Notes under the pieces: model-generated | What the model was told of the DNA's origin: nothing | Database searches by the model: none | The model's input: the letters and a program-made list of their open reading frames with translations, nothing else | Program-made: the position numbers and the translations under genes | Shown here: one piece after another, positions 18,456 through 43,668 of the stretch | Layout of the letters: every line of letters begins with the position of its first letter | How positions within the stretch are numbered: position 1 is the stretch's first letter | NCBI GenBank assembly: GCA_950295325.1 | Contig: OX485803.1 | Location: 63,503,554 to 63,567,553 of the forward strand | Source: Polytrichum commune | Taxonomy: Eukaryota > Streptophyta > Polytrichopsida > Polytrichales > Polytrichaceae | Direction: 5' to 3' | Length of the DNA stretch: 64,000 bases

Positions 18456-19965
18456 CGTGCTTGAGCTAAAATTGATGTATTGTCCAAGAGTTTCGTATTA
18501 TTCAAAATTAATGCATGGTAAGTACATGTAGTGGCTCTTCAGAAATTTTGACTGCTGATTGGTATCCGAAATCACATTTGTGAACCAGCAAGGAGATTTA
18601 ACTTTAGGTTACACGGAGGAATTGGATGAGCAATCCGGATTTCAGTAGTCAATCTGGAAAGTCGAATATATCTTGAGTTCTGACCTAAGAAATCGATAAG
18701 CTGGAAGCGGCCATTGAAATCCTTTACCTTGCAATCATATCTAAGATATAGGTGCACTTATAGAAAAACACCCTTCACACAAGAACTTCAATATCCTTGA
18801 AATTGAGAGTGATTGGAAATTGCATAGGAGCAAGGTCAAATTTATACCAAATAAAATTCAGTAATGTTCGGGGATAAGCACATTTCCCCTCTTTGTGAAA
18901 GCATTGCAGATTATAAATGTTGATTCAAAAGCAACCCTCCTTCAGCTTTCGTGTTTTCTCAAAGGTTTTCAGCTTGCCGATTTTAATCGGGCTGATGACG
19001 CTGGACTCTTAATATACTACCGGTCCACTATACTCGGGAAGCTGCTTATCAGCCTCTATTTTATTAAATATGACCTGAAACCTTTCTATTAGATGATTAG
19101 ACTCTACTGGTGGTTTCACCAATTTTTGTGGTGGATTTAAGCACTCTACGGTGTATGGAATATGCTTCACATGAATGGCACTAAGGAACACATTTGTAAA
19201 CTTTTTATCTCCATGCTTAAGTTGCCTCACAAAAGAGCACAATATTCAGTGAGCAAAAATGACCTCACTTCCATTTCTGCTGCACGCAAGCCAGATGAAT
19301 GTAAGGGTGGTAGACTTGGGGTTGGGCTTTGGAATCATGACTTATGAGGGGTTTGAGAATCAAATGAAATAAGCGTCAATAGTTGGATTTATTATTCTAT
19401 TAGTTCTGGAAAATTGGTAGCATGTCAAAGATGATTATGTTGTCTGCACTGAATAATCCCTTGGTACATTTTGGGGCAAACGTTTCCCGAAACCCTAAAC
19501 CTTGCAATTAAGGTTCAGATGGTATTCCAATCCTTCTCTGATGTGAAGCTTTGAAGTTTTTGTGTCGTTTGTACAACCTAAGTTCACCTGCATCGATCAG
19601 CTTGAAGATGCTATACATTAATTTTCTGCGATCGAGAATGAGTACTTCCTTCGTGTAGCAAGTCATAAACTTATAGAATAGCCCTAGCTTATCAAGCACA
19701 AATTTGTGGTCCTGCTTTCAGCTACGCACATGTGGAATAATTACCTTCAGACCCTTCGAGAAAAGAAGCATATACCCTAGTTGTTGAAATCGCCTTGTTG
19801 AATGGACCTATCATAGTAATTAGCTTTTGACACATCACTACATTATCTGCATTGTGCTGATTTGCTAGTAAGTGCCTCTACAGTAAATTTCTCTGGAATG
19901 CTGATATCGGGTAATTATAAGTAGTCAAGAGGAAGGGTTAATAAAAGTATGGGCCCCTTCACATT
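18456..19965. other. Spacer up to the MULE; nothing firmly recognised
   Basis: The first few hundred bases match 41.93-42.35 kb. Minus-strand frames at 19009-19242 and 19508-19699 look protein-like (for example LIERFQVIFNKIEADKQLPE) but match no family I know and lack splice context. They may be old transposon debris. Confidence 0.35.
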
Positions 19966-20041
19966 GGCAGACGTTAAAGTACCCCCTACGAACTTGTAGG
20001 GGGCAGTGTCAGCCAAAAAATGCCCTGCCCGCCTGGCGACA
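19966..20041 (+). repeat. MULE left TIR with internal hairpin
   Basis: Matches the reverse complement of 31082-31157 with only a handful of differences. It contains CCCCCTAC, a 6-nt loop and GTAGGGGG at 19982-20003, a perfect 8-bp hairpin, and ends near CCTGCCCGCCTGGCGAC. Confidence 0.93.
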
Positions 20042-20287
20042 GCGCAGGCAGCGTCGACGGAGTTCCGGGGTACTGTTCCGTCCATCATCCATCGCACGGA
20101 TGACGTAGGACGGCACACTGCACCCTGCACCCTGCGGCATACAAACACAACCGACGTCATTCACGTCAATGTCATTCACGTCCATGTCCTTCCGGGAAAG
20201 GTGGATCTCAGATCTGAAACATTAGGGTTTAGGGTGTCGACTGTGTGGTTTTTGAAACATCCCAGATATGCTGCTTCCTGGTGATCC

Positions 20288-20690
20288 ACAACACTCTTGT
20301 CAACCGAAGGACATCACATTCATTGTTGCAACATCATATTATCAAATCACCATACACAATAGACATAGCTGGGTTGGGTTTAGCACAACTTCGACAAGGG
20401 TTTAGCACAACTTCCACAAGGCTGTTGATTTAGAGTTGATGGAGGTATAGTGTTTAGGGTTTAGGGTACAATGCATTGTGAAGTCCCCATGGGTTCAACA
20501 TCACTCTTGTCAATCGAAGGACATCACATTCATTATTGCAACATCATATTATCAAATCACCATGAGGGATAGACATAGCTGGGTTGGGTTTAGCACAACT
20601 TCCACAAGGCTGTTGATTTAGAGTTGATGGAGGTATAGTGTTTAGGGTTTAGGGTACAATGCATTGTGAAGTCCCCATGGGTTCAACATC
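20288..20690 (+). repeat. Tandem duplication over the transposase start, with telo-boxes
   Basis: Two direct copies of about 200 bp (about 20288-20502 and 20503-20690), nearly identical, each with GGACATCACATTCATT, a GGTTGGGTTTAGCAC block, GTTTAGGGTTTAGGGT and ATGCATTGTGAAGTCC. Both carry the ATG used by the transposase, but only the second is followed by the long reading frame. The GTTTAGGGTTTAGGGT stretch is a telo-box-type promoter motif found upstream of many plant genes, so this is probably the duplicated promoter and leader. Confidence 0.8.
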
Positions 20691-23600
20691 ACAACCTGTT
20701 GTGATTGGAGAAATGTCCTTACCACAAGAATCCTTGAAGCATACTGATCCACCAGCATTTCGAGGACAGCAGATTGATATTGTTATGGCTTTGCGAGAGA
20801 GAATTCAAAATCCACCTCCTGGTGAGTTTAGGATGGAGGACTTAGTGTGGGCAGATCATATCACCCATGGAAAGGGTAGGCATAAAGGTTCAAGAATGGC
20901 ACTGATTCTATGGGATAGGTTAGACGATTTCATCTCAGGCGAGCAACATCACCCACTCTACCCATGCAGATTCAACGCTGATGTCATTAGGCGAAACTTA
21001 CCAAACTCCCTGAGATCACCCCGAGCACACAGTCCGGCTCTTGTAGTGAGGTTCGATTTATTCCTCTCCCCTCTTCCATTATCTGTGAGTTTTCTGCAAT
21101 GGTGCAACACCCAACTAATCCAGCTCAACTTCCTCGTATTTCACGTTGTCCTTCAATCTCTGATCCATGTCCTTCAGCATCAGTGAAGGTTTGTCGACCA
21201 CCTTTCATTGTGGGTTTGTATGACAAGCAGATATCGATGCAATTTTGGGCCGGAGGACAAGTCTGCTGTTGTCCCAGAGGACATGCAAGCCCTACTCAAA
21301 TCCACCCAGAAACGAAGGACAAAAAAGAAACAAACCAATAGGAAAAAAGGAAAGAAGGTCATACCAGAGTATGATGCATTCCCTATAAGCAGGTCAAGGG
21401 CCGCAAAGGTAAAGCGCGTGGGAAAAAATATTGGTGGGTTTTCCATTAAGAGAGGATGTTTGCGATGTTTTGTGGCGAATCAATCGTATCTGGATCCGTC
21501 ATTGTGCATGTTGGTTTACGAGAACACCATGCACTTCAACGCGCGCGGTGAACATTGCCATGGATCGATGGTCAGTGGATTCCGGTACGCGTTGGGTGCT
21601 GGTATCTCAGAAGACATGAAGTACAAAATAACCAAAATGCACGCTTTTGGGCTATCTCCTGCACAAATAATGCAGCAGCACACTAAGGAGGTTAGAGAAT
21701 TGGCTTTGGCTAATGGCCCTGTTACTCGTGATACATTCCTACTGCCCTCAGATGTTAGGAATATTTGTCGCAAGCGTGCGGAAGAGCTATGGATGAAGCA
21801 CCCGTCCGATCCTATCAGCGTCCGTATGTGGACGCTCGAAAATCCTGACAGTGTCTTCTACTATCAGGAACACTCACTTATGGATTTGAATTCTTCTACT
21901 CAGAATGAAGCACCCTTCACAATTGGCATACAAACTGAATGGCAGCTAGAAATGATGGAGAAATTTGGTCACAACAGCGCACTCTCAATCAACGCAACAT
22001 TTGGGACCACCCAAACACGGGTTTGACACTTACCTGTTCGTCTTTCACTTTTTAGTAATGTCCTTCACCACATATCATGTGCTTTCATACATAGATCAAT
22101 GTCCTTCAATATATAAGCAAGTCCTTTTCTACATAGTGATGTCCTTCGATATCTGTTGCAGTGTCCTTCATTTCATAAGCATATGCTACTGTACATGTTG
22201 CATTCACAATACCATTAACTTGTTTGTGTTAGTATCCTCTATACACGGTTATGGTTTTTGACGACTGGAGGAATGGCATACCTGTGGCTTTCTTCGCCAT
22301 TTCACGGACTCGCGAACAAGACCTCATTCCTATCCTTCAAGCCCTTCACAACAGAGTTGCCAAAAATAAACCAAATTGGTCTCCTTCATCCATCATAGTT
22401 GACAACGCCCAAGCAGAAATCAACACATTGAGGTATTGCCAATCTTCACATATGTCCTTCATATTGATAGTTGGGAGATAGAAATTGAGGATACTCACAT
22501 TGACTTCCATGTGCAGGCTTGTATGGCTTGCAGCCAAGATCTTCCTCTGCCTCTGGCACGTTCGGAAGGCGTGGGCAGAAAATGCTGTCAGGAAAATTTC
22601 CACTGTTGGAGAGCGTGCCGCGGTTCTTCAGATGGTGGGTGATATTATGTATGGCAATGGGTGTCCGGTTGACGATGATCCCATACAATGGGCTCTGAAA
22701 CAACTCGACATCATTGCCAACACAAGACCGCGATCAGCTGCATTCATGAGGTACATGAATGACAATTGGAGATCAAAGGCAGAGATGTGGTGTGTTGGCG
22801 CAAGGAGGATACCTCATGCAGGGCAGAATACGAATGCCGCCATTGAGTCGTACCACTCAAACTTGAAGAGCATATTAAATTCCACAAAGGAGCGTTTCGT
22901 TGGTAGACGCATGGATTGGCTGATCTTTCATCTCACCGGGGATGTGATTACACATTACTGGTACGGAGTCCAGTGCAAGGCTTTTGGATTTGTGAGAAAT
23001 AAACACCATGAGGGTATTGTTTGTTCAGCGATCATACGCGCATCAGCAATACCGGACACAAATGTCTTGATTTGCATGGACGAAGATGTAGCATACGTCG
23101 GGTCCGTGAATAACAGGCCAAAAGTTTGGACAATACACTCACCAGACTCCGAATGGGCGCAGTGTAACTGTCCAGTCGCGCAGGAAGGTATGATATGCAA
23201 GCACACCGTGAAAGTATTCAAGATGCTCCACCCCGACGTAGAGGATGGTGTCATCGTGAGAGAAGCTGGTACTATGCACGGAGTTGATCGTGGCACACCC
23301 ATATCCCAGTGTTATTCTAAGGTCCGACATACCACACTCCATGAAGGACACTCTCAGGATAATTCAAGGCTATTGAATGACATTGACAACTACGAGTGCG
23401 TGGATCTGGAGGGTGAACCCATTGGTGGATATATCCATCCCATTGTTGTTGGCTCCAAAGACCCCCTTGACATGAGCTCCCAGGTTTCAAGGGGCAATGT
23501 GTCCAATTCTATAGACCTCTCACAATCTGACCTGGCAAACTCCCAGACTGCGACGCGAACAACAGTGAATAACCTATACACTACATTGACAAAGAATGCG

Positions 23601-23810
23601 GATACTTACCCCATTCTTCACGCATATTTGATTGCAGACTTGAAGCACATACATGGAAAGCAAACGGAGATTATTGCGCGTGGTGACGCCATGTTGCAGC
23701 TAACATCCAGTCCTTCATATTTCCCAGCGCGCGGCGGTGATAACTCTCTCAAGCGCCATCGTAGCTTCCTAGAAAACCCACCGTCCAGGAAAAAAATTTC
23801 ACATACGTAA
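20659..23810 (+). CDS. MULE (MURA-type) transposase, 4 exons, 891 aa
   Basis: Exons 20659-21050, 21231-22020, 22233-22432 and 22517-23810 join in phase to 892 codons. The last three junctions are strong; the first donor is weaker. A basic segment (KRRTKKKQTNRKKGKK) precedes the DNA-binding and MULE transposase regions. The DDE core has INATFGTTQ at about 384-392, the second Asp in IIVDNAQAE (D451), CLWH at 472-475 and the catalytic Glu in AAIESYH (E571). The first Asp expected in this motif is Asn385. A SWIM zinc finger CxCx8CxH lies at 677-690 (CNCPVAQEGMICKH). The protein would cut and join the element ends. With Asn at the first catalytic site this copy is probably inactive unless the assignment is wrong. 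No stop or frameshift was seen in the joined frame. Confidence 0.88.
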
Positions 23811-24129
23811 TGTCTGTCATGTAGGACCTGTTTTGTGTACAAGTTTTTTGAAGAAATAAAATAAATCAATCTTCTTACCTCGTCCTTCCAAGACACTTAT
23901 GCAGTTTAAGAATGCTATAAGGATATATGAGTGAATATATGCATTATATTATGAAGGACGTTACTATTGTATAGTTCTGAACCGCAAACCCTCATTACAT
24001 CCAATTGTAAAATAATGAGTAGGCTTGGATACTTACATAATTGTCCCAATGAATGATTCAATGTCAAACAACTGCATCATGTTTCTAAGCAGAAGATTAG
24101 CTCCTTACCTCGTCCATACACTCATGATT
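23811..24129. other. MULE spacer between the convergent genes
   Basis: AT-rich transposase 3' flank with CGTCCTTCCA and GAAGGACG motifs. No gene. Confidence 0.4.
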
Positions 24130-24640
24130 ATACAATTGCAATGACTGAATGAAAATTGAATGATTGAATGACAACTGTATCACTGTATCCCTGTATGACT
24201 GAATGACAAATGTATCACTGTATCCCTGTATGACTGAATGACAAATGTATCACTATCCCTGTATGACTGTATGACTGAAGGATACTAAGACTGACTGTAT
24301 GACTGAATGACACTAAGCCTGAATGTTTTACTGAATGACAACAAGCTTGAATCATTTACTGAATGACAACAAGCCTGAATCATTTACTGAATGACAACAA
24401 GCCTTTATCCTTGACTGAATGACAGCAAGCCTGAATGACAATAGGTCTGACTGTTTGACTGAATGACAATAGGACTGTCTGTTTGACTGAATGACAATAT
24501 GACTAATTGTTTGAATGAATGACAGGTAAACTGACTGTATGACTGAATGACTATAAGAGACTACAAGAGACAACTAAACTGACTAACTAATTGAATGACT
24601 GAATGTCTTTGTATGACTGATGACTACAAGAGACTACACT
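24130..24640. repeat. CTGAATGACA minisatellite in the MULE
   Basis: A run of about 500 bp built from GACTGAATGACA-type blocks separated by 10-25 variable bases. Locally regular subarrays occur (a unit with TGTATCACTGTATCCC repeated about three times; a unit with ACAAGCCTGAATCATTT about three times). It lies between the 3' ends of the two MULE genes. The core GAATGAC is the same heptamer scattered elsewhere in the element. Confidence 0.85.
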
Positions 24641-24846
24641 ATGTTCCAGACTTCTTGAAACCAAAACCATAATCTGAAGGACGAGAGGGCTATTGCCAAA
24701 AAATATAAAGTTTGCTTTGTATTGAGGCGAAATGTACAAGTCACCAGTCTTTGGACTGTAGTGATAGTGTGAATCTAATGTATAATGTGTATTCAGACAC
24801 GTATAATTACAAAATGCTACAAGGCACCTTCGCAAAATCTGCAACG

Positions 24847-27800
24847 TCATCTTGCGCTGTGTTTTCTGACTGCACGACAGCGTTTTCTCGTGTATTTTTT
24901 TTGAGGTGTTTCCTTCAGGACGACTTTCACTTTCCATTGTGATCCCTTATGCTTCCCAGTTTTGATGACATTGAATAGAACATCACTTAGGTCCTGCCGT
25001 TGTTTGATCGCATCCGCCCTCTTATAATCAAATACACAATCCTGCACAATGAATGACACATTATAAAAGTCAGGTGAAGGACATATACAAAATATGAACA
25101 AAAACATAATTATGTGTCACCTAGATTACTTTCTACGGGATTGCAACTGACCTCGCGCAAGGTATGGGGTTTAGTTCTCAAGGCCTCAGTGTACTCCATT
25201 ATATTCTTCAGTAAATAAAAGCCACATGCCCAATCATAATTTTGTTGTGGCACAGATGGTTGAATCCAAACACTCGGTAACTGTGCATTTCGCCACATGA
25301 CCGATTGTTCGGTGTAGCCACTCCGCGCTGCCCACATCTTTGCTAAGCGCGTGCGATTGGTTGAATCAGAATGTAGTCCAGCGTCGCTCAGGGAATCGAA
25401 ATGAAAGAAACCCTGGTCCCCTAGAACGTATAGGGTCCAGTGTTTTCCGCAAGTGAAGGGCACTAAGAGAGTAGTTATGTCCAACTCCGGCAAAGTTGGA
25501 TACTTATTATGAATGAATTCTATAAAGAATTCTAATTTCTCGGTCGGATGCAAGTCAACGAACCCCGTTAATATAGGTATCAGGTAGGGGCTACATATAT
25601 GACACTTGACATCTTCTAAACGTGGATTCAACCACGTCCTTACCCACTCCATCATGTGGTTGGACAACTCGCCATACTTATAAGTTAATGGTTTTATGTC
25701 GTCCTTCCAGTCTAATGTACAAAATTCACCCTTCAAAGTAAATTCAAACGAAGGACACACTGCCCCACCTGCATCAGCTACAATCGTGTTCACTAGTTCT
25801 TCCAACCTGTAGACCACAAATACACACGAATCAGCTGTACAACATCAATGAAACCAAACATAACTATATCTGAAATTATATGAACAACAAATCATATCAA
25901 TAAATAACGTTGAATGTACTTCAATTGAAGCCTTACCTTCCATCAGACTTCTGGGTTGTCCGAGAAATGACATCGTCTTGACTGTCGTCAACCGGTGTCG
26001 ATGACACCTTGCTCTTGGCACGCTTTTAGCTACGTCCTTCAAGTACATCTGAAACACAACTCGCGTCCTTCGAACCTGCTTTTAAATTAGAACATAGAGA
26101 AGTATCGCCATCAATAGTGGGGGTTGGGGGTAATTCCAACCTTCGTGTGACTGAAACTCCCGGGGTCGAAGTTGTCATGGTCAGCGATGGCGTCCTGTGA
26201 AACCAAGGTCCTTTCCTTGATCCCCTATTGAGGTCAGTCGGTGTACACGGAGATTGCGAATGCATTGTGCAAAGCAATCCATCGGGTGAGAGAGGCGCCG
26301 GAGATGAAACCGTCTTCACTGGTGTAACCTGTGTGTCCTCCTGGGATTCCGCCAATTCTTGTGAAGGACTACTGTGAGGCCTCTGCGACAAAACCTCTTG
26401 GAGTGTGCACTTCATCCCCTTCGAAAGGTTTAGTGAACTCACCTACCAATGTACGCATGAGGGGCACATCCTCAGCAATGTCGTCCGTGGGAATCTCCAG
26501 ACCTAGTCCAGCGTACAACAAACTTAGTTGTGTACGCCGTAGTGATGATAGTACGTCAATCGCCTCGCGAAGCCGCATCTGTACGCACTTACTTTTCTTC
26601 TGGATGTCGCCAATTACAATAAACCCAATGTCCGCATCCTCGCGAATGACCATTGCTGAACATAATACCTGGATGTGAAACAACAGACAAATCAGCAGGT
26701 GACATACAAATACAAGCAAGTGAGATGAAAATAAAACAAAGAATGACATAATCAAATATTTGTTACATATTAATGACAATGGACAGTGATGTACCTCGTT
26801 GCATTTTGTCCGTCGTTGCTCAGGAACATCTGCCCTAAACCACATATCTTCCAGTTCAGAAGATCGCTGCATCCTAACCATGTCTGAGATGGCCCTGTGT
26901 GCTACTCTGCCAATGAAGGCTCTGATCTTGTCAACAACTGCAACCTGCTTTTCTGGATCGTAACCCAGCAATGCAATTGTGTCTGAATGTAGACTGCTAT
27001 AGTTATCAACTACAGCATGAATGCCTGGAAATGAAGCCCACCCTGATGCAGCTAAATTATGGACAACATTTGTCAATGCAACAGATTTCTCATTATCTAC
27101 TGCGAAGTCTAGAATGTACTGCAAAGTAAGACCTGCATCAGGATGAGAAAGAGGACGACTTTGACCATGTAATGTTCTGAACAAGACCAAGAAGGCTCGC
27201 AGAAGATGGGGACACTCTAGCTCAAGGGAGAGAGGCTCAGTACTGACATTTTCTAACAAGGTTTTCTCTATTTCTACCCACTCATCCTGAGTGTGTGCCC
27301 AAGGAGATGTGCGGAAATTGGAGAGGGGCCATTCCTTCAGAATACGGTAAATCGGAGACCACCCCCACGTCTCCTGCTCCGCGCGATTTTTTTCTGCATT
27401 GTCATACTTGTCGAGCTTGTCATTGACGTACTTTGTGCGTAACTCAGCAATGTTTCCATGTGCAGCAGCCACATTTGCCTCATACTCCCGGGTGCGGAGT
27501 CTGTAATTGAGGTAGTCCCTCAGTCGCATGAGTTCTTCGTACCTTAATTTGCACGTCCGAAAGGCTATTGAAACAACCTATTTGCGCCTTTATCTTCTGG
27601 AGAAGCGCCATGTGATCATCGGGGTTGCGATTACCCTGAATCAAAACAAGACAACCATGTCATTCACTGTTTTACATACGAAGGACATAATTTAAATACC
27701 AGCACTTGTAGTCACGTTGAGAGAATGACAGGTTCATATCGTGAATGACAACTAAAATATAGTGAAGGACATTGAAATGGACTGAATGACATTGACAACA

Positions 27801-29341
27801 CGTACCGATTTACCATAAAGATACCACGTGCCAAAAGCGCTGCCAAGCTTCACACCAAGGGTCCCCTCCTCCACCATTGCATGAAGGAACTGAATGCAAG
27901 CATCGGGGTCATTAATGAGATCCTTGGGCATCCAGTCAATGTCCACCTCGGTGATGAGGATGTATAATCCGCTAATATCCACGGGCGTAGGCGGAGGAGG
28001 ACTGCACGCAATGATAGCATCAGGGAACTTCGACCTCGCCCTACGCCATGCACGTTCTTCGATGTCCTTCCGGGTCAGAATGCGTTCGGAACGATCGTGC
28101 TTGACAACGCGGAAATCATCATCCTCGGAAGTTGAGCGGACCTCCAGCGAATTTCGGGTAGCGTCAGGTGCAGTGTCCTCCTTGCTGCCGTCGTTTGCTG
28201 AATGCCCTTGTGACTGTCCTTCAGAGCAATTTGCCATGTGTTCGTCACTGTCCCCAGATTTATCTTCATCCTGACTGACCGGTATTTCCACATGCAATTC
28301 TCCGTGATGCACAGTAGACCGTGATATCTTGCACGGAACCTGAAGTCGTGGTTTGGGGGCAGCTTCGGTGGCTAATTTGCTGCGCTTCGAACTGGATATG
28401 TGAAGGACATCCTCAGGCTCCCGTTTCGGGCCAGCAGAAGGCTTACATAGCACGTTTTGCTGGAAAACTTTTCCGTACTTCTTTGCAACCCTATGAAGCT
28501 CGCCGTGGTCACTCCTCTCCCACGTAGGATACATCTTCAGCGCAGCGGGTTCTTTGTACACCTTACAAAGGTTAAACATCCTATGGTAAGATGTCATGTT
28601 TTTATCTTTATGTAGTTCCTTACAAAAAGTACAGGAAAAAGGATACCTGCCATTCTTCAACCTTTCAGTAGTGACTCTAGACTCTGAATAAGCTTCAAGG
28701 ATCAAAGCATCGTACTCGGCTCCCAAAAAGAGAGCTGCACAGGGCTTTCTATTGTATGTCATAGTGCTCCTGTAAATCCTTTGTCCACCATACAACTGCA
28801 AGCAGAAGACCCATAAATTGTTCAGTGGAAATAACATGGATTGCCTAAATGCAAATTGGTTTTTCATGTCAATAACAAATCAAACTAAGAAACAGACCTA
28901 AACCCCGGAACTACTCCCAACAAAGTGTGCAGTTCTTGACAACAATATTACACAAAGAAGCATGGAAACAGGATAAACATATTTTGAGCAGATTGTGGCA
29001 AGGGATACCCAAAAAACCCTACACCACTAGAATTCAGAATGCAATACCCTATAATTCCAACACTCATGCGACATATATAAGAAAGCTGTATGTACCAGCA
29101 GGCAATTTGGAGCAATAAAAGCGAGCAAAAACTAATTTTTAGCAAAAAGGGAAAAAAAAATATGGCTCACCCCCGGTTGCCAACCAAGAGCACCGAACAC
29201 CACCATGTCCACAAATTTTGGACGACCCAGGAGCGAGATCAATGCCGGATCTTCGACCACGTGCAGGCGATGCTTCAAGGCTTCAGGAACCAAATTTGCG
29301 GTTGTCCAGGGCACCTGCGGCTTCAGGGTAGATGTCGCCAT
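24847..29341 (-). CDS. MULE-borne Ulp1/C48 SUMO-protease-like gene, about 8 exons
   Basis: Supported exons are 29341-29171 (MATSTLKPQV start), 28795-27806, 27635-26795, 26668 to about 26445, about 26378-26045, about 26030-25937, 25806-25152 and 25041-24847. Borders of exons 4-6 are approximate. Exon 2 has a CxxC...HxxxxxC cluster (CTFCKELHKDKNMTSYHRMF) and an acidic, phospho-like region. Exon 7 is a C48 domain: GKHWTLYV (His), FHFDSL (Asp), PQQNYDWACGF (Gln and Cys), the full Ulp1 catalytic set. Ulp1 enzymes cleave SUMO or SUMO-conjugates; the role in transposition is unknown. Exon 3 changes frame near 27555 (between KIKAQIGCFNSLS and KLRYEELMRLRD), a probable frameshift or unrecognised splice. 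The tail is very basic (KKYTRKRCRAVRK). Confidence 0.78.
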
Positions 29342-29609
29342 AGCTATGAAGAAGCGTGAAGAGAGAGAATGAAGAAATATGAAAGAATTGCCTGGCAGCA
29401 GTGAACTCAATTTAGGATGCAAGTTGGAAGCCAAGGAAGAATGCGGTGCAACTCTGCAACGAAAAACAGTGAACGGTTAAAACTAAGAACCATGCACACA
29501 ACAACCAAATCCCAAAACCCTAACCCTGTCTTGCAACTGCCAAACCTTTTCTTGCGACTGCAACTGTAGCGCCTAAACAAAATTGTCTTTATGCGGATGA
29601 GCAAACTGT
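29342..29609. other. MULE 5' flank of the Ulp1 gene
   Basis: Leader and promoter side of the minus-strand gene. No separate gene seen. Confidence 0.35.
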
Positions 29610-30330
29610 GTGATGTGATGAATCTCAGAAACCCTTCCACGTTTCCACCTTGCGGAGTCGCTAAACTTCAAGAATCTGAGAAACCCAAACACGTCTCCAC
29701 CTTGCAGACTCGCTCTTTTTTGCGAATCTGCGCAAAAAACTTCTGCGCCTTCCAAATTCGCTGAACTTGAATAATCTCAGAAACCCAACACCTTATGCTA
29801 TTTGCAGAGACCCTCAATCTTCCGAATCTCAGGAACCCAAAAACTTATGCTATTTCCACAGTCGCTGAAACTTCCGAATCTAAGATACCCAAAATCTTAT
29901 GCTACTTGCAGAGTCGCTCAATCTTCCGAATCTAAGAAACCCAAAAACTTATGCGCCTTGCAGAGGGAGACCCTCAATCTTCCGAATCGCAAGAACCCAA
30001 AAACAGCAAACCCTTTCCACAATCGCTGAATCTTCCGAATCTAAGATACCTTGTAACTTATGCTATTTCCACAGTCGCTGAATCTTCCGACCCTAAGACA
30101 CCCAAAAGCTTAAGCTACTTGCAGAGTAGCTAAATCTTCCGAATCTAAGAAACCCAAAAACTTATGCGCCTTGCAAAGTCCCTCAATCTTCCGAATCTCA
30201 GAAACCCAAAAACACATGCTATTTCCACAGTCTCTAAACTTGAAGAATCTCAGAAACCCAAAAGATTCTCCGCCTTGCAGACTCACAACACAAATTCATG
30301 AAGAATCTCAGAAACCCAAGAAATTGCGAA
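29610..30330. repeat. 50-60-bp tandem array upstream of the MULE Ulp1 gene
   Basis: Around a dozen imperfect units, each with CTGAATCTTCCGAATCT, AAGAAACCCAAAAACTTATG and a C(T)TTGCAGA or TTCCACAGTCG block. Short open frames here repeat the same peptide (SSESKKPKN and variants) in shifting frames, which marks them as by-products of the array. It lies about 270-990 bp upstream of the Ulp1-gene ATG, in promoter or leader position. Confidence 0.88.
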
Positions 30331-31081
30331 ACTCCACCTATCTACAGCAGGAAACTCTTGCAACTAGATCCCAAAGGACAACACCTCACCAACTCTGTGC
30401 ATAACAGTTCCTACATAAATGTGTTAAACAAAATCCTATCAAACACCAAAAGGCCTCCCAAATACCTGTAGAGTTCAACACTTCACCATAATAATGACAA
30501 CGCCACAGCTCAAGTGGCAATGATGAAGAGATCGCCAAGCGACACGCCACGCTACACCCCCCGAATGGCGAAGAGACGCCAGACACCCAAACCCTAGGTT
30601 GCAAAGATGGCGAAGAGACGCCTCGCAATCACCACACTGATGCAGGATCTAATCATACATGCCTAAACCCTAAAACTACACTCATTGTACGCCAAATGTG
30701 CACTCCTTCCACAAGACTAGATCCTCAAGCACATCATGAATAGGTCCTAAATCATTACTAACATCAATCTGAGTGTGGCGATCACCAATAATCACTCGAA
30801 AAACGTCTAATCTCTCAACATCCCACCTCAGTCACTCTCAAATCATTGATAATCAAAACAAGCACACACATGAGAAAGATTTGCAATTGAGAGAAGGAAA
30901 TATGAAGGACACCCATGTGACCATACCTGCTAACCTCGAAGGACGCCTATTCTCGAAGGACTGGAATCCGGCTGGTCGCGCTTTCTCGAAGGACGGGACC
31001 CCTGGAAGGACGCGTTCCTCACCGTCCGCAACTACCCTCTGTCATTCCATCCATTGGTGACCGGTTCAACCGGTCACCCCA
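30331..31081. other. MULE subterminal region rich in GAAGGAC
   Basis: Contains a short repeated ATGGCGAAGAGACGCC (about 30563 and 30607) and five GAAGGAC heptamers within about 120 bp (30903-31020), close to the right TIR. No gene seen. Subterminal motif clusters are often transposase-binding sites in other DNA transposons. Confidence 0.55.
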
Positions 31082-31157
31082 GTCGCCAGGCGGGCAGGAG
31101 ATTTTTTGGCCTGGAACTGCCCCCTACAAGTTCGTAGGGGGTACTTTAACGTCCGCC
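31082..31157 (-). repeat. MULE right TIR with internal hairpin
   Basis: Inverse copy of the left TIR, with the same hairpin at 31120-31141. The adjoining CTTAACATT (31158-31166) is the second copy of the target duplication. Confidence 0.93.
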
Positions 31158-31166
31158 CTTAACATT

Positions 31167-31765: not shown

Positions 31766-32440
31766 TCATTCAATGGTGTACCCTGCACACACGACAATCA
31801 AAAGCGTTACTACTTGTAGCCTGAATTTACCAAGATCAAAATATTAATAAAGTGATCAATCATAGTAGAAAGATGACATGTTCTGACGGAGCCCAGGAGT
31901 GATGTGGTCACTTTACCTCGAGATCCACAGAAGAGACAAATACTGCAGAGGAGATTTCTAGGAGAAAAATTTGGATTCCACAGAAGAATGTACAAAATGT
32001 TGCATAAATTACAAACAAAGTTGTGGAAACTGGACTAGATTACTAGGCATGGACAGAATAAAACCGAAAAATAATCACAATTAGCCAGTCAACTCACTAA
32101 AATCAAAAAATGCACAGATGGATGTCAGCAATTCACACTTACTTCCACATTTGTATCCTTTCAGGTTGGTGCGACCGCAGACTCTGGGCATGGCGAATGC
32201 ATTCCTCATCATGTTCTGCGGAAATTTTCCTTGCTGCATTTGACTACACAGACACGCAGGGTTCGCTTCCCTCACTGCCCTGCAGCATGCGCCATTTGGA
32301 CGAGGAGGGTAAGCGCCTTGCACTGCTCCGTAGCAGGGAGCCAATGCACTCAAGGTGCATTGAGCATTCACCTCCACTGCGAATGCCAACACCAATAGCA
32401 TGCAGATGCTCATGGCTACGAATCGCTTGCTGCACTCCAT
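31766..32440 (-). CDS. Secreted lipid-transfer-like protein (LTP-B), 2 exons
   Basis: Exon 1 is 32440-32143 and exon 2 is 31782-31766 (17 nt), giving 104 aa ending CGRYTIE. It has the same signal peptide (ending VNAQ), eight cysteines and GTAAGT donor as LTP-A. It lacks the four residues GGRN in the loop before the CC pair, by an in-frame 12-nt difference. It also has an acidic change (REANPACLC). This is the most diverged intact member, and its flanks match those of the dead copy at 12.6-14.1 kb. It sits between the MULE right end and the Copia element, yet the reading frame is open, so it is probably functional. Confidence 0.86.
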
Positions 32441-32553
32441 GGCTCCCACAATTGGTGAAGGTGCAACAGATAGAGTAAAGCAAAGTGGATAAGAAGTTCT
32501 GGCCCAGTGAGATGAATGCAGTTGAGGGTTACTGGAAGTGGAGATTATGCATG

Positions 32554-32560
32554 TTATATG
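32554..32560 (-). promoter_or_regulatory. TATA-like box of LTP-B
   Basis: CATATAA on the minus strand, 114 bp upstream of the ATG, at the same place as in LTP-C. Confidence 0.5.
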
Positions 32561-33299
32561 TATGGATGGAATCTGGGCCTAATCATGGGTTGCTAGACCA
32601 GGGGGAGCATTGATTGTTTGAGCTAACAGTATTGCACTTTTAGGAATATCTTAGTGCATTGGCAGGAGTTGACCTGATAGCCTCCTACAATGAATGCCGC
32701 ACAGAAGTTGGTGCACGTAGAACCTCCAGAATGTAAATTAAATCTGGGACTGACATGATATTAATATTGGAGGAGAAAGTGCATTTCACCAACTTCCAAC
32801 AACCCGGTGAGGAATCCACCTTGAAAGAGCACACGACGGGCTACTTGAGCAGGTTTGGTGTTGTGAACTTAAATTAGAGCTCGATATCAGAAATTATTAT
32901 ATGAGGCATCTGCATATTACAATTGACTTTAATGAAGGTTGCTGCGAACGTTGAGTCTAATCTGGTTAATTAAACTTTGGTTGTTTCTAATATTGTCCAC
33001 TCTCACCTGATCGAAGACACTGCGTATGTCCATGCTCCTTGTGTTTCTCCGTCATTAATAGGAGAGCAAGTTGTTTTTAAAGATCATGAATGAATCAATT
33101 AACATCCCACACGCAAGCCTACACAATTTGGATTGTAAATTTTAGCGTTGGCCTCCAGCCAAAAAATCCAAAAATAGTTCTGACTAGCAATTCAACAACG
33201 TTGGGTGAATCTCCAAATTTTTGCTATCAGAGTGTGACAACAACCGCAAATCTGTGTAGACGAGACGTAGATTTACAAGTTTTCGGAGATGCTTAGTAT
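32561..33299. other. LTP-B upstream spacer
   Basis: Diverged match to 14.17-14.93 kb of block 1. The homology stops at GATGCTTAG exactly where the Copia LTR begins. No gene. Confidence 0.5.
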
Positions 33300-33491
33300 T
33301 GATCACAACTGTATTATAATGACTCACAGAACACATTCACTCGAAAGTAAGGCAGCATTGACTCACACATACACAACACTCAGCAGGATGTTCATGGGCA
33401 GTAACTTTCTTTATTCATGCTTCTTGATTCTTGGATCAAGTCACTTACAGCATTCTACAGTGCAGACACGCACTTCGCACTATTCACGTCA
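33300..33491 (-). repeat. Copia 3' LTR
   Basis: Begins TGATCACAACTG on the plus strand and ends ATTCACGTCA. Differs from the 5' LTR at one base in GGGCAGTAAC/GGGCAATAAC and one near the outer end. Confidence 0.9.
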
Positions 33492-33598
33492 CACACACTC
33501 TTAGATATCAAGAGAGTGATGCCGCCTTTTATTCTAAGCTGAAGGAAGCTTCTATCACTAATTGGTGATCAGATCTAACTAAACAGGTAACTAATCAG

Positions 33599-33654
33599 GA
33601 ACAATGCTCAACGAACGAATTGTCTCCAATACTCCCACTCGTTGAGCATTGTTC
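33599..33654. repeat. Perfect 16-bp inverted repeat near the Copia 3' LTR
   Basis: GAACAATGCTCAACGA at 33599-33614 and its exact inverse at 33639-33654, with a 24-nt loop, between the pol stop and the 3' LTR. Confidence 0.85.
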
Positions 33655-33668
33655 AACCAATCTCCCAC

Positions 33669-36600
33669 TCAATGCTCAACAGAGCACATACCCAGTTGGT
33701 GACGGAGGCGTTGAAAGGATTCTTTAGGCAGTGCTTTGGTAAAAATATCTGCAAGTTGGTCATGGGAAGAGACAAAAGAAGGAAGAAGAATATCAACAAG
33801 AAAGGCTTCACGAATGACATGATACTGCACATCAATGTGTTTGGTGCGGCGATGAAATTCGGGATTCTTGATAAGGCGTAGAGCGCTCTGATTATCAGTG
33901 AATAAGGGAGTGGGGGAAAGAGGAGGCTTCCCAAGACTGTTGAGCAGACGACGATGCCGTATGATTTCTTTGGTGGTCGAAGAGGCCGCAAGATACTCGG
34001 CCTCGGTAGTACTGCTGGCGCAGCTGGCCTGTTTCCGAGAAGCCCAAAACACAGGACCATGGTTCACGAAAAGAATGAAACCTGAACGCGACTTTCTGTC
34101 ATCGAGATCCATAGCGAAGTCTGCGTCACTGTACGCAGTGAGAGAAAGTGGATGATCATCCCCAGAGAATGAGAGGCCGAGATTGAGGGTACCTGCGAGG
34201 TATTTGAGAATTCGTCGGAGAGCGTTGCAGTGAGCCGGGGAGGGATTAGAACAATACTTAGCAGCAACGCTAACAGCATAAGAGAGATCTGGTCGGGTGC
34301 CAATGCAGGCAAATTGAAGACAGCCGACAATGGTTTGATAGGGAAAATGAGAAGTCGAAATAGAAGGATCAGAAGAGAGAAAGCTGAGTTGAGTATGAGG
34401 GTCGGCGGGGACTGATAAAGGGACGGCATCAAGAAAGCCAAATTTGCAAACCAGTTTAGTGAGATAATGGGTTTGATCAAGAAAGAGCTCATGGGTATCA
34501 CGGCGACGAGTGATGCGAAGACCAACATAGCAACCTGCTGGTCCGCGGGTGTTGGAAAAAACTTTATCCATGGTATCAAGAATATGGTCAATATTGGTGC
34601 CATCATCGACATAAATGAGAAGGATGATAGTTTGGCCACCGTGAGAGGAATAATATGCACAAGGATCGGCATCACTCACTTTGAACCCAAACTGCAGAAG
34701 AAAGGTATGAAACTTGTGGTTCCAGTTTCGAGATGCTTGCTTGAGACCATATAGGGCTTTGCGAAGGAGGCAGACATAATCAGGATGATCAAGATCAACA
34801 AATCCCTCAGGTTGCTCCATGTATAGGAGCTATGCAATATCCCCATTCAGAAAAGTAGTTTTGATGTCGAATTGGATGATTTCAAGATCATCCGCTGCAG
34901 AGATTGCCATAACGATCCGAACAGTTTCGAATTTAACCACAGGGGAGAAAGTCTCACTGTAATCAATCCCAGCCTTTTGGGTGTATCCCTTAGCAACAAG
35001 GCGGGCCTTAAATTTATCAATATTGCCATTGGGAAGGTACTTAGTTTTGAAAACCCACTTGCACTGAATTGCTTTGTGTCCATGAGGGAGTCGAACCAAT
35101 TCCCAGGTTTTGCTTTCTTTGAGAGAGTTGATCTCTTCTGTCATTGCATGGACCCATTGTGCAGCATCAGGACTATGAAGAGCTTCTTGATAAGTAAAAG
35201 GGTTGTCTGGAGAAAAATCGGCAGTAATGGTATCGGTGGGCTGAAAAGAAGAGACTGCAGTTTCAAGGGGAGATGTGCTATGAAGTGGGAAGGAACCAGA
35301 TGAAGTATGACTTAGATGAGCATGAGTTGGTGGAGAAAGAACAGAAGATGATGATTGAGAAGCAACAGGCTCAATTTCAGCAAGAGGATGGAGTCGAACA
35401 GGTGTGTTCGGTTGATAGTTAGGGTGGGAAAGAAGTGTCCTGGGAGTGAGGAGAGAAGAAGGGACAACCTCTGTAGAGGTACAATCAGAAGCATCGATAG
35501 TAGGAAGTACAGAAGAGGAGCCGGTAAAATTAGAAACAGAAATTAGGGGGGACTCAGTCGGATCAACATTTAGGGTAGACTCAGGTAGGTCAGAATGAAG
35601 AGTAAAAGAAGAAGAGGAAGAAGAAGGGGAATTATCAGGAAGAGAAGAGGAGCTTGGGAAAGAAACATGCAACAAATCTTCAGAAGGAATTGAAGAAGAT
35701 GGCTCCACCGAGTTGCCGTAGAGAAGATGTTCGTCAAAAATGACATCTCAGCGAACGAGAACTTCGGATGTATCTGGATCCCAGAGCCAATATCCTTTGG
35801 TGTTGTCACAATACCCTAGAAAATAAAAGAGATGACTTTTGGGATCCAATTTAGTGCGGTGTTTTTTCTCAATGTAAGCATAAGCGTGACACCCAAAAAT
35901 GCAAAGATGTTCCAAAGAAGGTTTGAAACCATGCCAGAGAGTAAAAGGGGTGTTGCCAGGAATCAAGCGTGAACCTGTCCGATTGAGAGTATAAACGACT
36001 ATATGACAGGCTTCGGCCCAAAAATTCTGAGGGAACCCACTAGTGTGTAGAATAGAGCGGACACTCTCCATGATTGTGTGATTATCTCGCTCGCAGAAGC
36101 CATTCTGCTCTGGGCAATAAGGAGCAGTAATTTCGTGTTGGATACCTTGTTGAGATAGATATGCCTCAAAGTTCTTACTGGTGAACTCCCCTCCTCCATC
36201 TGTGCGGAAGATTTGCAGGTGGTTGCCAGTATCGCGGAAGATGTCATGATAGACGTCCTGAAGACACCGAAGAGCATCAGACTTCTCAGCAATACAGAAA
36301 ATGTATCTATACCCTGAAAAATCGTCCTTAAAGAGCAAATAGTAAAGGGCGCCTCCCAATGGAACGTGTGCCATGGGTCCGCAAATATCTGCATGGATCA
36401 AATAGCCAGGAGTCGAAGAGGGTTTTCGAAATGGTGGAGAAACAAAACTGTGGCGATGGCTTTTACCCAGAACACAACCTTTGCACAAATCAGGAATATG
36501 TTTGTTCTGGAGAGTCATCCCAGTGACGGCCTCAATGCGATCCATAGCAAGAATGGTGGGATAATTGAGATGACAGAGTCTTTGATGCCAGATGGCCAGG

Positions 36601-38184
36601 CTGCGAGTACCATCTGCTTTCGAAGTAGTGCCAAGGGAATGAATGACATTAGCATGTGAAGAAGACTGGAGTGCTCAAATATGAAGCTTGTAAAGCATCC
36701 CCTCCAAAGAATCCTCCATAAGGACGAGGCCATCAGCCAACATCTGACAGCCGATCTTAGTATATAGAGTGTTGACGTTTTTGAATGCCGCTGAAGATAC
36801 AGAGAAAAGATTACGCTGTAGAGTGGGAACATATAGAACATCAATGAGCATGCCACGCTCCCACTGATTCCAAATGTGAATTTCGATGGGAATTGTCACC
36901 AATACCTTCAACAAATGTTGTGTGCCCTCCCACTGCTTGAACGGGCCAGGTTCCAGCAGGTGCTGCGATGAAATTCGTGAACCAGGAACGTTGGTCAAAC
37001 ATGTGATGGGAAGAACCGCTATCAGCAAGCCAATCAGTAGGTTGAACTTCTTGATCAAGAAATTGAACCATATATGCGTGTGGGGTGGTCATTGTTACAT
37101 GTGATGATCGCGCTGAGTACCGGGAATCTTGCGATGGTGAAGAGACTCCGGTCGAAGGTGGAGTGTGCTGTTCGGGCGACGGTTGATACGGTCCATGCCG
37201 AACCACAGCACGTTTTCGGGGTCGAGGGCACTCTTTATGCCAGTGACCCAGTTCACCACAATTTCCGTAGCGTGAGACCTGTTTTCGAGCCGCAATCTCT
37301 TGTGCTCGTTGTGAACGGAGATCATGCTGATCATGCTGCAAGAAGGGACGAGAAGATCTGAGATCATCGGAGACATTAGTTCTCATGCTCCCACTAGCCG
37401 AAAAAGGAGGACGATATCTTCCTGGATCACCCGTAGTTCTTGAACTCTGAGAATAGTACGCCGCAGTATGACTGTGTACGTTTTCAGACTGCCGTTTGCA
37501 AATGGCACGTTCCTCGTCAAGAAGCCATGTCTGTAAATTGGACAGAGTCTGTTGCTCAGGAGTGACAGTTTTCCACATGGTTTGGAAAGTATCATAAACT
37601 GCCGGCAGGTTACTTAACATTTTAGAGATGACCATTTCGTCAGAAAAGGATCTCGTGCCAAGTTCCTCAATCTGGCTATTGAGCATTTCAAGATTGCCAA
37701 TGAAGGTAGCCATATCTCCATTGTCACCAAGCCGCATGTTGTAGTAATTTTCCTGCAGTTGGTACAACGATTGCACAGCAGTGCGTTGATGGATTAGGGC
37801 GAGTTTGTCCCATATCTCCTTGGAGGTCTTACAGTTAATGATCTGGTGAAGAATTGGTTTATCCACCAATTGAATGAGTATGGAGAAGGCTTGTTTATCG
37901 CGTTTCTTGAAATCAAGAGTTGCATTCTGAATGGCATCCCTCTCTACGGGAGACAATCCTTCATCCGAAGTGGGAGTGAGCTCTGAAAAGAGAGTGCGTC
38001 CAAATTGGATTTCAGGCACTAGAGTAGAGGATGAAAGAGACGGCAAGACAGGCAGGGTTTCTGTTCCATCAACAATTCCCAGGAAACCTCAACCATCAAG
38101 AAATGCTTGTGCCTGAAACTTCCAGAGATTATACTCTTTCCCATTATATTTCTGTAGGTTACTGAGCTCTTTGAGATCACTCAT
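33669..38184 (-). pseudogene. Copia gag-pol, broken
   Basis: The frame starts MSDLKELSN at 38184. In order: Gag; a zinc knuckle whose first Cys is Tyr (YGNCGELGHWHKEC); protease with ADSGSSHH; GAG-pre-integrase (HQRLCHLN, then CKGC); integrase with HADICGP, RTDGGGEF and PEQNGFCE; reverse transcriptase with IYVDDGT; RNase H with ADIFTKALP; and the end at GMCSVEH. In-frame stops are TGA at 38089-38091, TGA at 36675-36677, TGA at 35748-35750 and TAG at 34830-34832. The frame shifts once near 36900 (Gag frame before, pol frame after). Copies in trans could mobilise it, but it cannot make its own polyprotein. Confidence 0.9.
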
Positions 38185-38700
38185 GATGGACACTATTAAC
38201 CACCCTGTCAGGCAAGAAAAACCTCGTAGAAATCGAGAGAGAGAAAAATCAAGAAGAATAGAAGAATTATGAGTTATCACTTGAGCAAGAGCTGGAAGAT
38301 TAGGCCTATCAATGTAATATAGAGAAAGATTCCTGCTAAGACTAAATACAGACGAGAGATCGATAGCGAACAAGTACCGCGAGGGAAAAAGAGGAAGATA
38401 AGTCAAAAACCATGTCAAGAATCAAGAAAGATAGATGTTGATAGGCACCAGATGAGAATCGGGTCATTGGAAAAGATGATGACGAGATTAGTTAAGTTCA
38501 GAAAGAAAAGAAGGAGCAAAAGATTCATTCAATAACCTGGAATGTGCTAGCAGCAGTTGATGTCAGAAAAACAACTCAAGAAACGTGCCAGTGCATGTAG
38601 AAAGGAAAAAAAAAAAATCTAGCCAGTAACGGAGTCCAAAGAAAAATAGCAACAGATTGTTCTATAGTTTGAGGACCATGAAAAACGGAGGCGCAAGATG

Positions 38701-38713
38701 TGGGCCCATAACC
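38701..38713 (-). other. Copia primer-binding site (half-tRNA-iMet type)
   Basis: The plus strand TGGGCCCATAACC equals the anticodon arm of plant initiator tRNA-Met as I recall it. The minus (element) strand is therefore complementary to the inside of that tRNA, not to its 3' end. It lies 3 nt from the 5' LTR. Confidence 0.7.
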
Positions 38714-38716
38714 TAT

Positions 38717-38908
38717 TGATCACAACTGTATTATAATGACTCACAGAACACATTCACTCGAAAGTAAGGCAGCATTGACTCACACATACACAACACTCAG
38801 CAGGATGTTCATGGGCAATAACTTTCTTTATTCATGCTTCTTGATTCTTGGATCAAGTCACTTACAGCATTCTACAGTGCAGACACGCACTTCGCACTAT
38901 TCACGACA
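38717..38908 (-). repeat. Copia 5' LTR
   Basis: Same 192 bp as the 3' LTR; ends ATTCACGACA next to the host sequence CATGGAGTTTGC. Confidence 0.9.
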
Positions 38909-38924
38909 CATGGAGTTTGCATAT

Positions 38925-38970
38925 CTCTCTCTCTCTCTCTCCATATATATATATATGTATATGTATATAC

Positions 38971-39002
<32 letters not shown>

Positions 39003-39066
39003 GTATATGTATGTATATGTATGTATATATATATGTATATATGTGTGTGTGTGTATGAGAGAGAGA
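38925..39066. repeat. Compound microsatellite
   Basis: (CT)n, then (TA)n, long (TATG)n/(TA)n, (GT)n and (GA)n in succession, right beside the Copia 5' LTR. Absent from the corresponding place in block 1 (near 15.33 kb). Confidence 0.9.
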
Positions 39067-39962
39067 GATTCATGGCCTGCTTATAATATTTAAATTCCCC
39101 CATCTCAAACTGATGGAAATGTACATTCTCCTCTATATCCGTAGAAAATTTTGATTACTAGTATTTCCTACTTTCGTTGAAAATAGTTCATACCAAAGTG
39201 AAGAGTGAATGCAGAATGCGGTCCGGGCAGAGCAGCGAACATATTCTACTGAATAGATTAGCGATGGTGGGATTGAAATATCCTTCAACCGACAAACATT
39301 GGGAACATGGATTCGAATCAGCAAATCCGCTTCGCTAATCACCGCAGAATGCTGTTATTTTCAAGGTCTAAAAGGAGCGACAATGGACACAAAGCAATGA
39401 AGGGATAACATTTTGATGCAGAGTTGGGTATTTTGCACTCTAAACAGAAATACAGGCAGTATAGCCACAAGGACAGCTAACCTTGAAGGGTGGAAAATGT
39501 CTCATTGAACCAAGCATATTCAAACGATTATTACAGCCATATTCTGGAGTGGCCCAAAATCCGTTTACCAAAACCATCTCACATTCTTACTCTTTATTCA
39601 TTGTTCAACCAGTGCCCAATTGACAAGAACTTGCAGGGACCAACTGAAATCATGGCTGTTCCTAAATAAACGTCTTACAAACACAAGACATGCTGTTTGG
39701 CACCCATGGCAACTATGAGTAATTGCCCATAGAGCCCCATCCATTACATCGCCGTGCGACACAAAACTGAAGACTGCTCATTTCCTCAGATGCTAATGAA
39801 AGTTTCTACATTTATACTGAATGCAATCTGAAGAGTATAAATATACCATCCTCACTAACATCGAGTGCACAACCGTGCCAAAACCGCTTCAGGAGCCAAT
39901 CATCCTGACAGCTACGACATTCTCTAAAGCTGAGAGCTGGTGGAGAAACCGATCACAGCGTT
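39067..39962. other. 3' flank of LTP-C
   Basis: Homologous to 15.36-16.23 kb; near-identical from about 39.75 kb onward. Non-coding. Confidence 0.5.
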
Positions 39963-40689
39963 TCATTCAATGGTGTAAACTGCACAAACATCGAGAACCG
40001 AGGAAGTGTAAGCACCCTGAAGTACCCAAGAAATCACGTCGACCAAAACTCAGAATTAAGGTGGGCTGTTCAAAGTCGAAAGATGGATTGACGTTGCTGA
40101 TAAGGACTGAGTAGGCCGTTTCGCCTCCAGATTGACATGAAGGTCACAGGCACCATGGCCTGAAGTGTGTAATGACACCAAAAAATAGATTCTACTGACG
40201 AAGGCACAGCATCCTGCAAATTCTACACGTTGAAGTAACTAGAAGCAACGATGTACAGTAGAAACTTCACTTGATTTGTGCGCACAAACAACAGTTTCAT
40301 AACCGAAGAATAATCACATGAGCTTCGTCAACTCACTTATAAGGGAGCTGCATAGATGGACATGAGTATATACACTTACTTCCACATTTGTAACCTCGGA
40401 GGTTGGTGCGACCGCAGACTCTGGGCATGGCGAATGCGTTCCTGATCATGTTCTGGGGATACCTTCCCTGCTGCATTTGGCTGCACAGACACGCTGGATT
40501 CGCCACCATCACCGCCCGGCAGCATGCGCCATTGCGGCCGCCGTTAGGACGAGGAGGGTACGCGCCTTGCACTGCTCCGTAGCAGGGAGCCAATGCACTC
40601 AGGCTGCACTGCGCGTTCACCTCTGCTGCGAATGCCATCACCAGCATCACGCAGATGCCCATGGCTACGAATCGCTTGCTGCACTCCAT
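39963..40689 (-). CDS. Secreted lipid-transfer-like protein (LTP-C), 2 exons
   Basis: Exon 1 is 40689-40380 and exon 2 is 39979-39963, giving 108 aa. Exon 1 encodes exactly the LTP-A protein, and introns, UTRs and about 1.8 kb of flank are almost identical. The eight-cysteine scaffold, signal peptide and YTIE end are conserved. Both copies appear intact, so gene dosage of this product is at least two here. Confidence 0.88.
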
Positions 40690-40802
40690 GGCTGTCAAAC
40701 AAAACGGTGAAGATTCAAAGAGAGGAGCAAAAGCATTCACAGAGCTGGCTCGGTAGAATGGATACGCTTGTGACTTGTGTGTTACTGGAAGTGAGGGTTG
40801 TG

Positions 40803-40809
40803 TTATATG
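40803..40809 (-). promoter_or_regulatory. TATA-like box of LTP-C
   Basis: CATATAA on the minus strand, 114 bp upstream of the ATG. The 5-bp difference in spacing from LTP-A comes from an indel in the leader. Confidence 0.5.
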
Positions 40810-42822: not shown

Positions 42823-43538
42823 TCATTCAATGGTGTAAACTGCACAGGTCATACCCAAAGCATCAGCAACGTGAATTCAGCAGGAACTCATGACGAATAA
42901 AACATTTTAATTGACGGTCACCAGAGTAAAATGAGTAAGATCAATCGGAGACACGGGCGACTGAGACAGAGTGAAGTGAATTAATAGTGATTACTCAACT
43001 GCACACATCGTGGTCAACAGAGACAAACACTTACATGCATGAACTTACGAAGCTTTGCACTGCTGCTTGTTTTGCACGTCTTGGAGTTAATGGGTAGTGA
43101 GGACTCTCAGTAACTACATTAAATTTGTAGACACGGACACACGACACATGGGGTGCTAGAAAAACTTAGGACCATCTCACAAAGAAGGATAGGTGCTGCA
43201 AGGCATGGCGAACAATATATATACTTACTTCCACATTTGTAACCTCGGAGGTTGGTGCGACCGCAGACTCTGGGCATCGCGAATGCATTCCTGATCATGT
43301 TCTGGGGATACCTTCCCTGCTGCATTTGGCTGCACAGACATGCGGGATTCGCCACCATCACCGCTCTGCAGCATGCGCCATTGCGACCGCCATTGGGACG
43401 TGGAGGGTAAGCGCCTTGCACTGCTCCGTAGCAGGGAGCCAACGCACTCAAGCTGCATTGGGCATTCACCTCCGCTGCGAATCCCAACACCAGCAGCACG
43501 CAGATGCTCATGGCTACAAATCGCTTGCTGCACTCCAT
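42823..43538 (-). CDS. Secreted lipid-transfer-like protein (LTP-D), 2 exons
   Basis: Exon 1 is 43538-43229 and exon 2 is 42839-42823, giving 108 aa. It differs from LTP-A mainly in the signal peptide (MSICVLLVLGFAAEVNAQ); the mature eight-cysteine region is almost the same and the protein ends IYTIE. The intron has the GTAAGT donor and GTGCAG acceptor. Unlike the other three, its 5' region carries a canonical TATAAAAG and its flanks do not match the other LTP units, so it may have its own expression pattern. Confidence 0.88.
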
Positions 43539-43661
43539 GGCTTCCGGAAGTTGGTGACCTGAGTTACACCACAGGGAGATTAACAAGCCTCGAGGGGAGG
43601 AGGGCTGCAGTAGATGTCGACGAAGGAGGCTGCGATGAAGATTGAAGTTGGCTACGGCTGC

Positions 43662-43668
43662 TTTTATA
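43662..43668 (-). promoter_or_regulatory. TATA box of LTP-D
   Basis: GGTATAAAAG on the minus strand, about 125 bp upstream of the ATG; a strong consensus at a normal distance for a short leader. Confidence 0.65.

Follow-up and report, generated by a model that had tools for sequence, protein, structure and literature searches.

The window, the 64-kb stretch of DNA analysed here, contains a Mutator-like transposable element (MULE) at 19966-31157 (about 11.2 kb), with 76-bp terminal inverted repeats (TIRs), a 9-bp target site duplication (TSD), a transposase gene and a convergent gene with a C48 (Ulp1-type) peptidase domain, hereafter the Zn-Ulp1 gene. The short word GAAKGAC (K being G or T) is held and kept in the noncoding DNA of this element family, which argues that a sequence-specific factor probably recognises it. 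We propose that this factor is the Zn-Ulp1 protein itself, which would bind GAAKGAC and relieve the silencing of site-bearing copies, much as the VANC proteins do in Arabidopsis; we put the probability of this reading at about 0.5.

In the 11.2-kb element there are 32 GAAGGAC and 26 GAATGAC, compared with 2 and 4 in the remaining 52.8 kb of the window. For the window as a whole, 64 GAAKGAC were observed against 19.5 expected from shuffles, and 58 of them lie within the element (Table 1). Six lineages of the family (71 kb; copies E0, E2, E4, E5, E6, and E7, with E1, E3, E8, and E11 excluded as near-copies or partial) contained GAAGGAC 140 times and GAATGAC 116 times, while the reversed words occurred 5 and 2 times. 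The remaining single-base variants occurred 3-36 times each, and their reversed words 2-24 times.

The word was also conserved between these lineages. In introns (84 sites, 291 comparisons), 0.378 of the GAAKGAC were identical and 0.550 were still a site, compared with 0.073 for other 7-mers. When an intron site differed by a single change, the change was a G/T swap at K in 50 of 70 cases; with every change equally likely, the expectation is 1 in 21. In the 5' regions, 0.549 were identical and 0.676 still a site (other 7-mers, 0.191; G/T swap, 26 of 56), and in the intergenic array 0.105 and 0.197 (other 7-mers, 0.033; G/T swap, 14 of 37). The values for coding sequence were 0.325 identical versus 0.236, with the G/T swap making up 6 of 85 single changes. 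When 187 recurrent 7-mers from introns and 5' regions were ranked by identity, GAAGGAC was 7th and GAATGAC 22nd; these ranks are based on 37 and 41 columns, respectively, while most higher-ranked words have 8. Ranked by how one-sided their changes are, eight of the top 12 words show the GAAKGAC G/T swap; the first-ranked word is unrelated (9 of 10). On these alignments, the clearest conservation signal is that of introns free of long arrays. It is improbable that tandem duplication and gene conversion produced the sites incidentally, with no binding protein involved: many sites do lie inside tandem repeats, and the corresponding word of a sister subfamily (below) is mostly in arrays, but a tolerance of G/T only, in introns and at a median synonymous divergence (Ks) of 0.66-0.97, would be hard to obtain without selection on the word. 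The existence of a site-specific binding factor is thus well supported by the comparison of copies.

The intron sites are one-sided in orientation: 80 of the 84 read GTCMTTC along the sense strand of whichever gene they lie in. This counts against our proposal, as the same orientation would also be expected from an RNA-level role, in which GAAKGAC would act within the introns of the element's two genes, for instance as a signal for splicing or export. However, the word is kept in the 5' regions too, where 36 of 52 sites read GTCMTTC from the end inward, and it is clustered in the arms of foldback elements (below). Moreover, the remaining 52.8 kb of the window, in which host introns are unannotated, contain just 6 sites. 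We therefore consider a function in RNA quite improbable.

The best candidate we propose for the factor is encoded by the element. The initial annotation had described a Ulp1-bearing MULE with a complete His-Asp-Gln-Cys set, and this was borne out in a multi-copy family with both genes under selection. The C48 exon matched PF02902 with 27.4 bits (cut-off 20.7), and its His-Asp-Gln-Cys residues align with those of human SENP8 (1xt9, E 0.0011). The zinc-cluster exons had been left without a function. The cluster is indeed there, but the near-invariance of its Cys2-His-Cys block and the GAAKGAC sites had been missed: C-x2-C-x12-H-x5-C lies in a 34-residue stretch, 32 residues of which are identical in all five aligned copies. 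In Pfam, this exon gave just a weak match to Cupredoxin_1 (E 0.15). Among solved structures (PDB), a C2H2 finger matched it best (E 0.42), so that a zinc finger is a plausible reading of the exon. The exon has 123 matches in its own genome. In addition, the 5' region of the gene holds a 52-bp tandem repeat (9 copies, window 29773-30263) without GAAKGAC.

The ratio of nonsynonymous to synonymous divergence (Ka/Ks) was determined for stretches of both genes with 6 or 7 copies per stretch, at the median Ks given above. In the Zn-Ulp1 gene, the median Ka/Ks was 0.06 for the zinc exon, 0.13-0.16 in the middle, 0.19 for the C48 domain, and 0.23 for the C-terminal exon, and the two stretches of the transposase gene gave 0.09 and 0.17. 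These low medians indicate that both genes are kept by purifying selection.

At least 11 zinc-exon matches with 46-51% identity have a C48 match at a distance of about 4 kb, and we therefore assign them to a sister subfamily of the same architecture. At one locus, the sister C48 domain is 55% identical to that of the window element and has the His-Asp-Gln-Cys residues. In 8.2 kb from two sister loci, GAAKGAC occurs once and GAACATG, which is absent from the window copy, 23 times when both strands are counted. AACATG is the sole 6-mer found at least four times in both the intron-1 stretch (57-bp units) and the 5' stretch (24-bp units) of the sister. In the whole genome, there are 209 triples of CCATGTTC versus 1 of the reversed pattern. 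Distances from clusters to zinc exons were scored on contigs C1 and C2, where listings are complete, with runs of CCATGTTC matches collapsed. Seven of the 13 CCATGTTC loci on C1 and C2, and one of three on the listed part of C3, lie on the 5' side of a zinc exon (48-54% identity), at a distance of 2.0-3.8 kb. No zinc exon there is accompanied by both GAAGGAC and CCATGTTC clusters, though the majority have neither. In the sister Zn-Ulp1 gene (L049, 998-1150), there is also a 51-bp tandem repeat (3 copies) that lies in an open frame and itself contains CATGTTC; in the available part of the source, variable regions of VANC are said to contain peptide repeats too (PMC5735166). At C1:14040739-14047198, two CCATGTTC clusters face each other about 6 kb apart with no listed zinc exon near, possibly another element with the sister word.

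GAAGGAC triple clusters number 205 in the whole genome, versus 3 for the reversed pattern. There are 33 such loci on C1 and C2. Nine of them (8 genes) have a zinc exon at most 13 kb away (such zones make up 0.8% of the sequence), and 17 share arm sequence with the foldback element L029 in BLAST. Of the 24 loci away from zinc exons, 18 were compared and 17 matched foldback arms, with inverted arms checked in four. The four foldbacks examined, L029 (2597-5083) and L030-L032, are about 1.9-2.7 kb long. Their arms of 0.7-1.2 kb are 100% complementary and carry TGAAGGACA clusters, and their ends, e.g., GGCAGACGCTAAAGGGACCCC in L030, are similar to GGCAGACGTTAAAGTACCCCC of the window element. A 9-bp duplication was found in two of the four (one exact, one with a mismatch). 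The foldbacks look like non-autonomous relatives of the Ulp1 MULE with the same GAAKGAC site.

Sites in the arms of foldbacks with related ends, and the GAAGGAC cluster (five sites) immediately inside the right end of the window element, would also fit the main rival of our proposal. In this rival, the transposase or an accessory transposition protein would bind GAAKGAC, and the Ulp1 protein would act otherwise. The subterminal repeats of CACTA elements are sites for an element protein, and the many short sites here resemble them; the transposase is another candidate binder of GAAKGAC, which is a point against the Zn-Ulp1 protein. However, unlike in CACTA elements, the sites extend through the introns and the centre of the 11-kb element rather than lying merely near its ends, and they are kept in the introns. 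We regard this explanation as unlikely, though far from negligible.

In the mechanism that we favour, the element would encode, next to its transposase, a second protein in which the Cys2-His-Cys cluster is combined with a Ulp1/SUMO-protease-type domain. This Zn-Ulp1 protein would bind the GAAKGAC sites of its own family, and its protease would cleave SUMO, or a modifier resembling it, off silencing factors at these sites. Silencing would then be lifted on the copies that carry GAAKGAC, in the way that VANC works on Arabidopsis VANDALs. Foldbacks with GAAKGAC could profit without encoding the protein, and the sister subfamily would have switched its target to a different word. Tentatively, and at less than even odds, the system might represent a second type of sequence-specific anti-silencing encoded by a transposon. 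It would consist of a fusion of a zinc cluster with Ulp1, recognising GAAKGAC within its family in a plant of bryophyte grade, together with a re-targeted sister and gene-less foldbacks using the same address. Sequence-specific anti-silencing by transposons is already known from Arabidopsis VANDALs, Ulp1-bearing ones included. New here would be the differently built second protein, the selected DNA word, the change of word between sisters, and the probable non-seed plant host. If the proposal is correct, the strategy is older or has arisen more than once, and the role of Ulp1 domains in MULEs becomes testable. The results of our literature search held no report of transposon-encoded anti-silencing or of Ulp1 MULEs in bryophytes, which is no proof of absence.

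According to the available parts of two sources, the VANC proteins of Arabidopsis VANDAL MULEs bind family-specific short words in noncoding DNA and remove silencing marks (PMC5735166, PMC10398659), and these words are arrayed in one orientation (PMC5735166). The window element is similar in being a MULE with a second, non-transposase protein, and in having a family-specific short word that is enriched in noncoding DNA and tandem repeats and is found in one orientation (as far as PMC5735166 was available). The noncoding word is even subfamily-specific, GAAKGAC here and another word in the 8.2 kb of the sister. On the other hand, VANDAL TIRs are described as degenerate in the available part of PMC10398659, while those of the window element are long. 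The Cys2-His-Cys exon with the C48 domain and a host that is probably not a seed plant are further differences, and the system described here is known from sequence alone. DUF1985 and DUF287 are the domains named for VANC proteins (in what was available of PMC5735166). Neither was matched in the second protein at E values up to 1, which counts against a VANC-like function, and membership in VANC was rejected.

The initial annotation had called the element KAONASHI-like. In the portion of PMC13317346 that was available, KAONASHI (KIU) are Ulp1-bearing VANC genes of VANDALs, and Ulp1 is also found in MULEs of melon, rice, and grapevine. Some VANC genes hold a captured Ulp1 domain, and KIU-carrying Vandals recognise noncoding motifs of their own kind (PMC13317346). 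The same portion describes KAONASHI elements as non-TIR MULEs and places the Ulp1 capture at the monocot-eudicot split. The window element shares with them a C48 domain in a gene inside a MULE. However, it has 76-bp TIRs and a zinc exon; because of the TIRs, KAONASHI membership is not supported and was rejected. With DUF1985 and DUF287 not found either, the name applies just in the sense of a MULE with a C48 gene.

Several further observations weigh against our proposal. In the rest of the intergenic DNA, outside the array, GAAKGAC was kept in 0 of 26 cases. Ordered pairs drawn from six related copies lack independence, and misalignment of repeats can inflate conservation. Single pairs reach a Ka/Ks of 0.72 for the C48 domain and 0.91 for the C-terminal exon, decayed copies included. 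Most of the zinc matches listed on C1 and C2, copy E5 among them, are without either kind of triple cluster. The sister word GAACATG is also present outside the sister, 13 times in the 52.8 kb of the window that flank the element and 0-3 times in each of five other copies. Furthermore, the sister arrays are partly common by descent, and the reading of the sister is based on 8.2 kb from two loci. The change of word between the subfamilies is moderately supported, because part of the pattern is the descent of one array.

The outline of the element given in the initial annotation could mostly be re-derived: its ends at 19966 and 31157, its TIRs (92% identity in an alignment of 76 columns), and the 9-bp TSD with one mismatch. 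The annotation had also proposed a search of the host genome with the TIR, and this did not return only the window copy. With the left end as query, there were 74 candidates and 40 scored matches in the 408-Mb genome, about 406 Mb of which is in 7 contigs of 42-78 Mb each. Two ends were present in 9 of 11 further regions retrieved; E9 and E10 were retrieved but left outside the element set, as their far end is missing. With the ends free to move by up to 3 bases, all ten two-ended copies have a 9-bp TSD. Among the nine further copies it is exact in eight and has one mismatch in one, which together with the window copy makes eight exact and two with one mismatch. Copies E1 and E2 are 99% identical, E7 and E8 99%, E3 and E5 96%, E6 and E11 90%, and the remaining pairs 73-84%. 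Since E1 and E2 are on different chromosomes, transposition was fairly recent. By these hallmarks, the family is a multi-copy, cut-and-paste MULE family.

The four-exon transposase also stands, with approximate boundaries; the exon boundaries of both genes were drawn by hand, from the sequence alone. The joined exons matched PF10551 (MULE) with 49 bits (E 8.6e-13; cut-off 27.6), whereas a single exon alone gave 24.5 bits, under the cut-off. The element had been called complete, and it does have both ends, the TSD, and both genes, but the copy in the window has decayed. At the first catalytic position of its MULE DDE motif it has Asn, where nine of nine other copies carry Asp. Relative to seven of seven copies shown, its Zn-Ulp1 gene is 4 bases longer near 27544-27547, and a deletion near 26375 leaves 68 letters versus 112-142 in seven of seven copies; both change the frame. 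An intact window copy was ruled out by the Asn and these two frame changes.

Table 1. Features of the Ulp1-bearing MULE, in window coordinates
Feature	Position	Strand	Remarks
Left TSD CTTCACATT	19957..19965	.	1 mismatch to right TSD
Left TIR	19966..20040	+	92% over 76 columns with right end; multi-copy
58 GAAKGAC sites (32 GAAGGAC, 26 GAATGAC)	20156..31047	.	Introns, 5' regions, intergenic repeats, some coding
MULE transposase gene, about 4 exons	20659..23810	+	Approx. 20659-21083, 21240-22026, 22247-22434, 22514-23810
Tandem repeats containing GAATGAC	24134..24640	.	Between 3' ends of transposase and Zn-Ulp1 genes
Zn-Ulp1 gene, several exons	24855..29342	-	Two frame breaks in window copy, near 27544 and 26375
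C48/Ulp1 peptidase domain, His-Asp-Gln-Cys	25125..25808	-	PF02902; SENP8 alignment
Exon with C-x2-C-x12-H-x5-C cluster	28301..28798	-	Lowest Ka/Ks among stretches tested
Cluster of five GAAGGAC sites	30904..31011	+	Just inside right end
Right TIR	31082..31157	-	Pairs with left end
Right TSD CTTAACATT	31158..31166	.	1 mismatch to left TSD

The non-seed plant host suggested initially is supported by LFY in the genome (6 matches at 3 loci) and by 13 matches to dynein heavy chains, distributed over 8 places. To our knowledge, angiosperms and conifers lack these dyneins. LFY and the dynein heavy chains point to a host with motile sperm, which is probably not a seed plant. A moss would be our guess, given the genome size and its division into seven large contigs. 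The genome also has a host-like Ulp locus (L052), identified by eye, and several C48 matches clustered at C5:50.11-50.46 Mb that apparently belong to another local family. Beside the element, at 32081-43748 of the window, there are repeated frames for small cysteine-rich secreted (LTP-like) proteins and a Copia-type retrotransposon, both named from frame reading.

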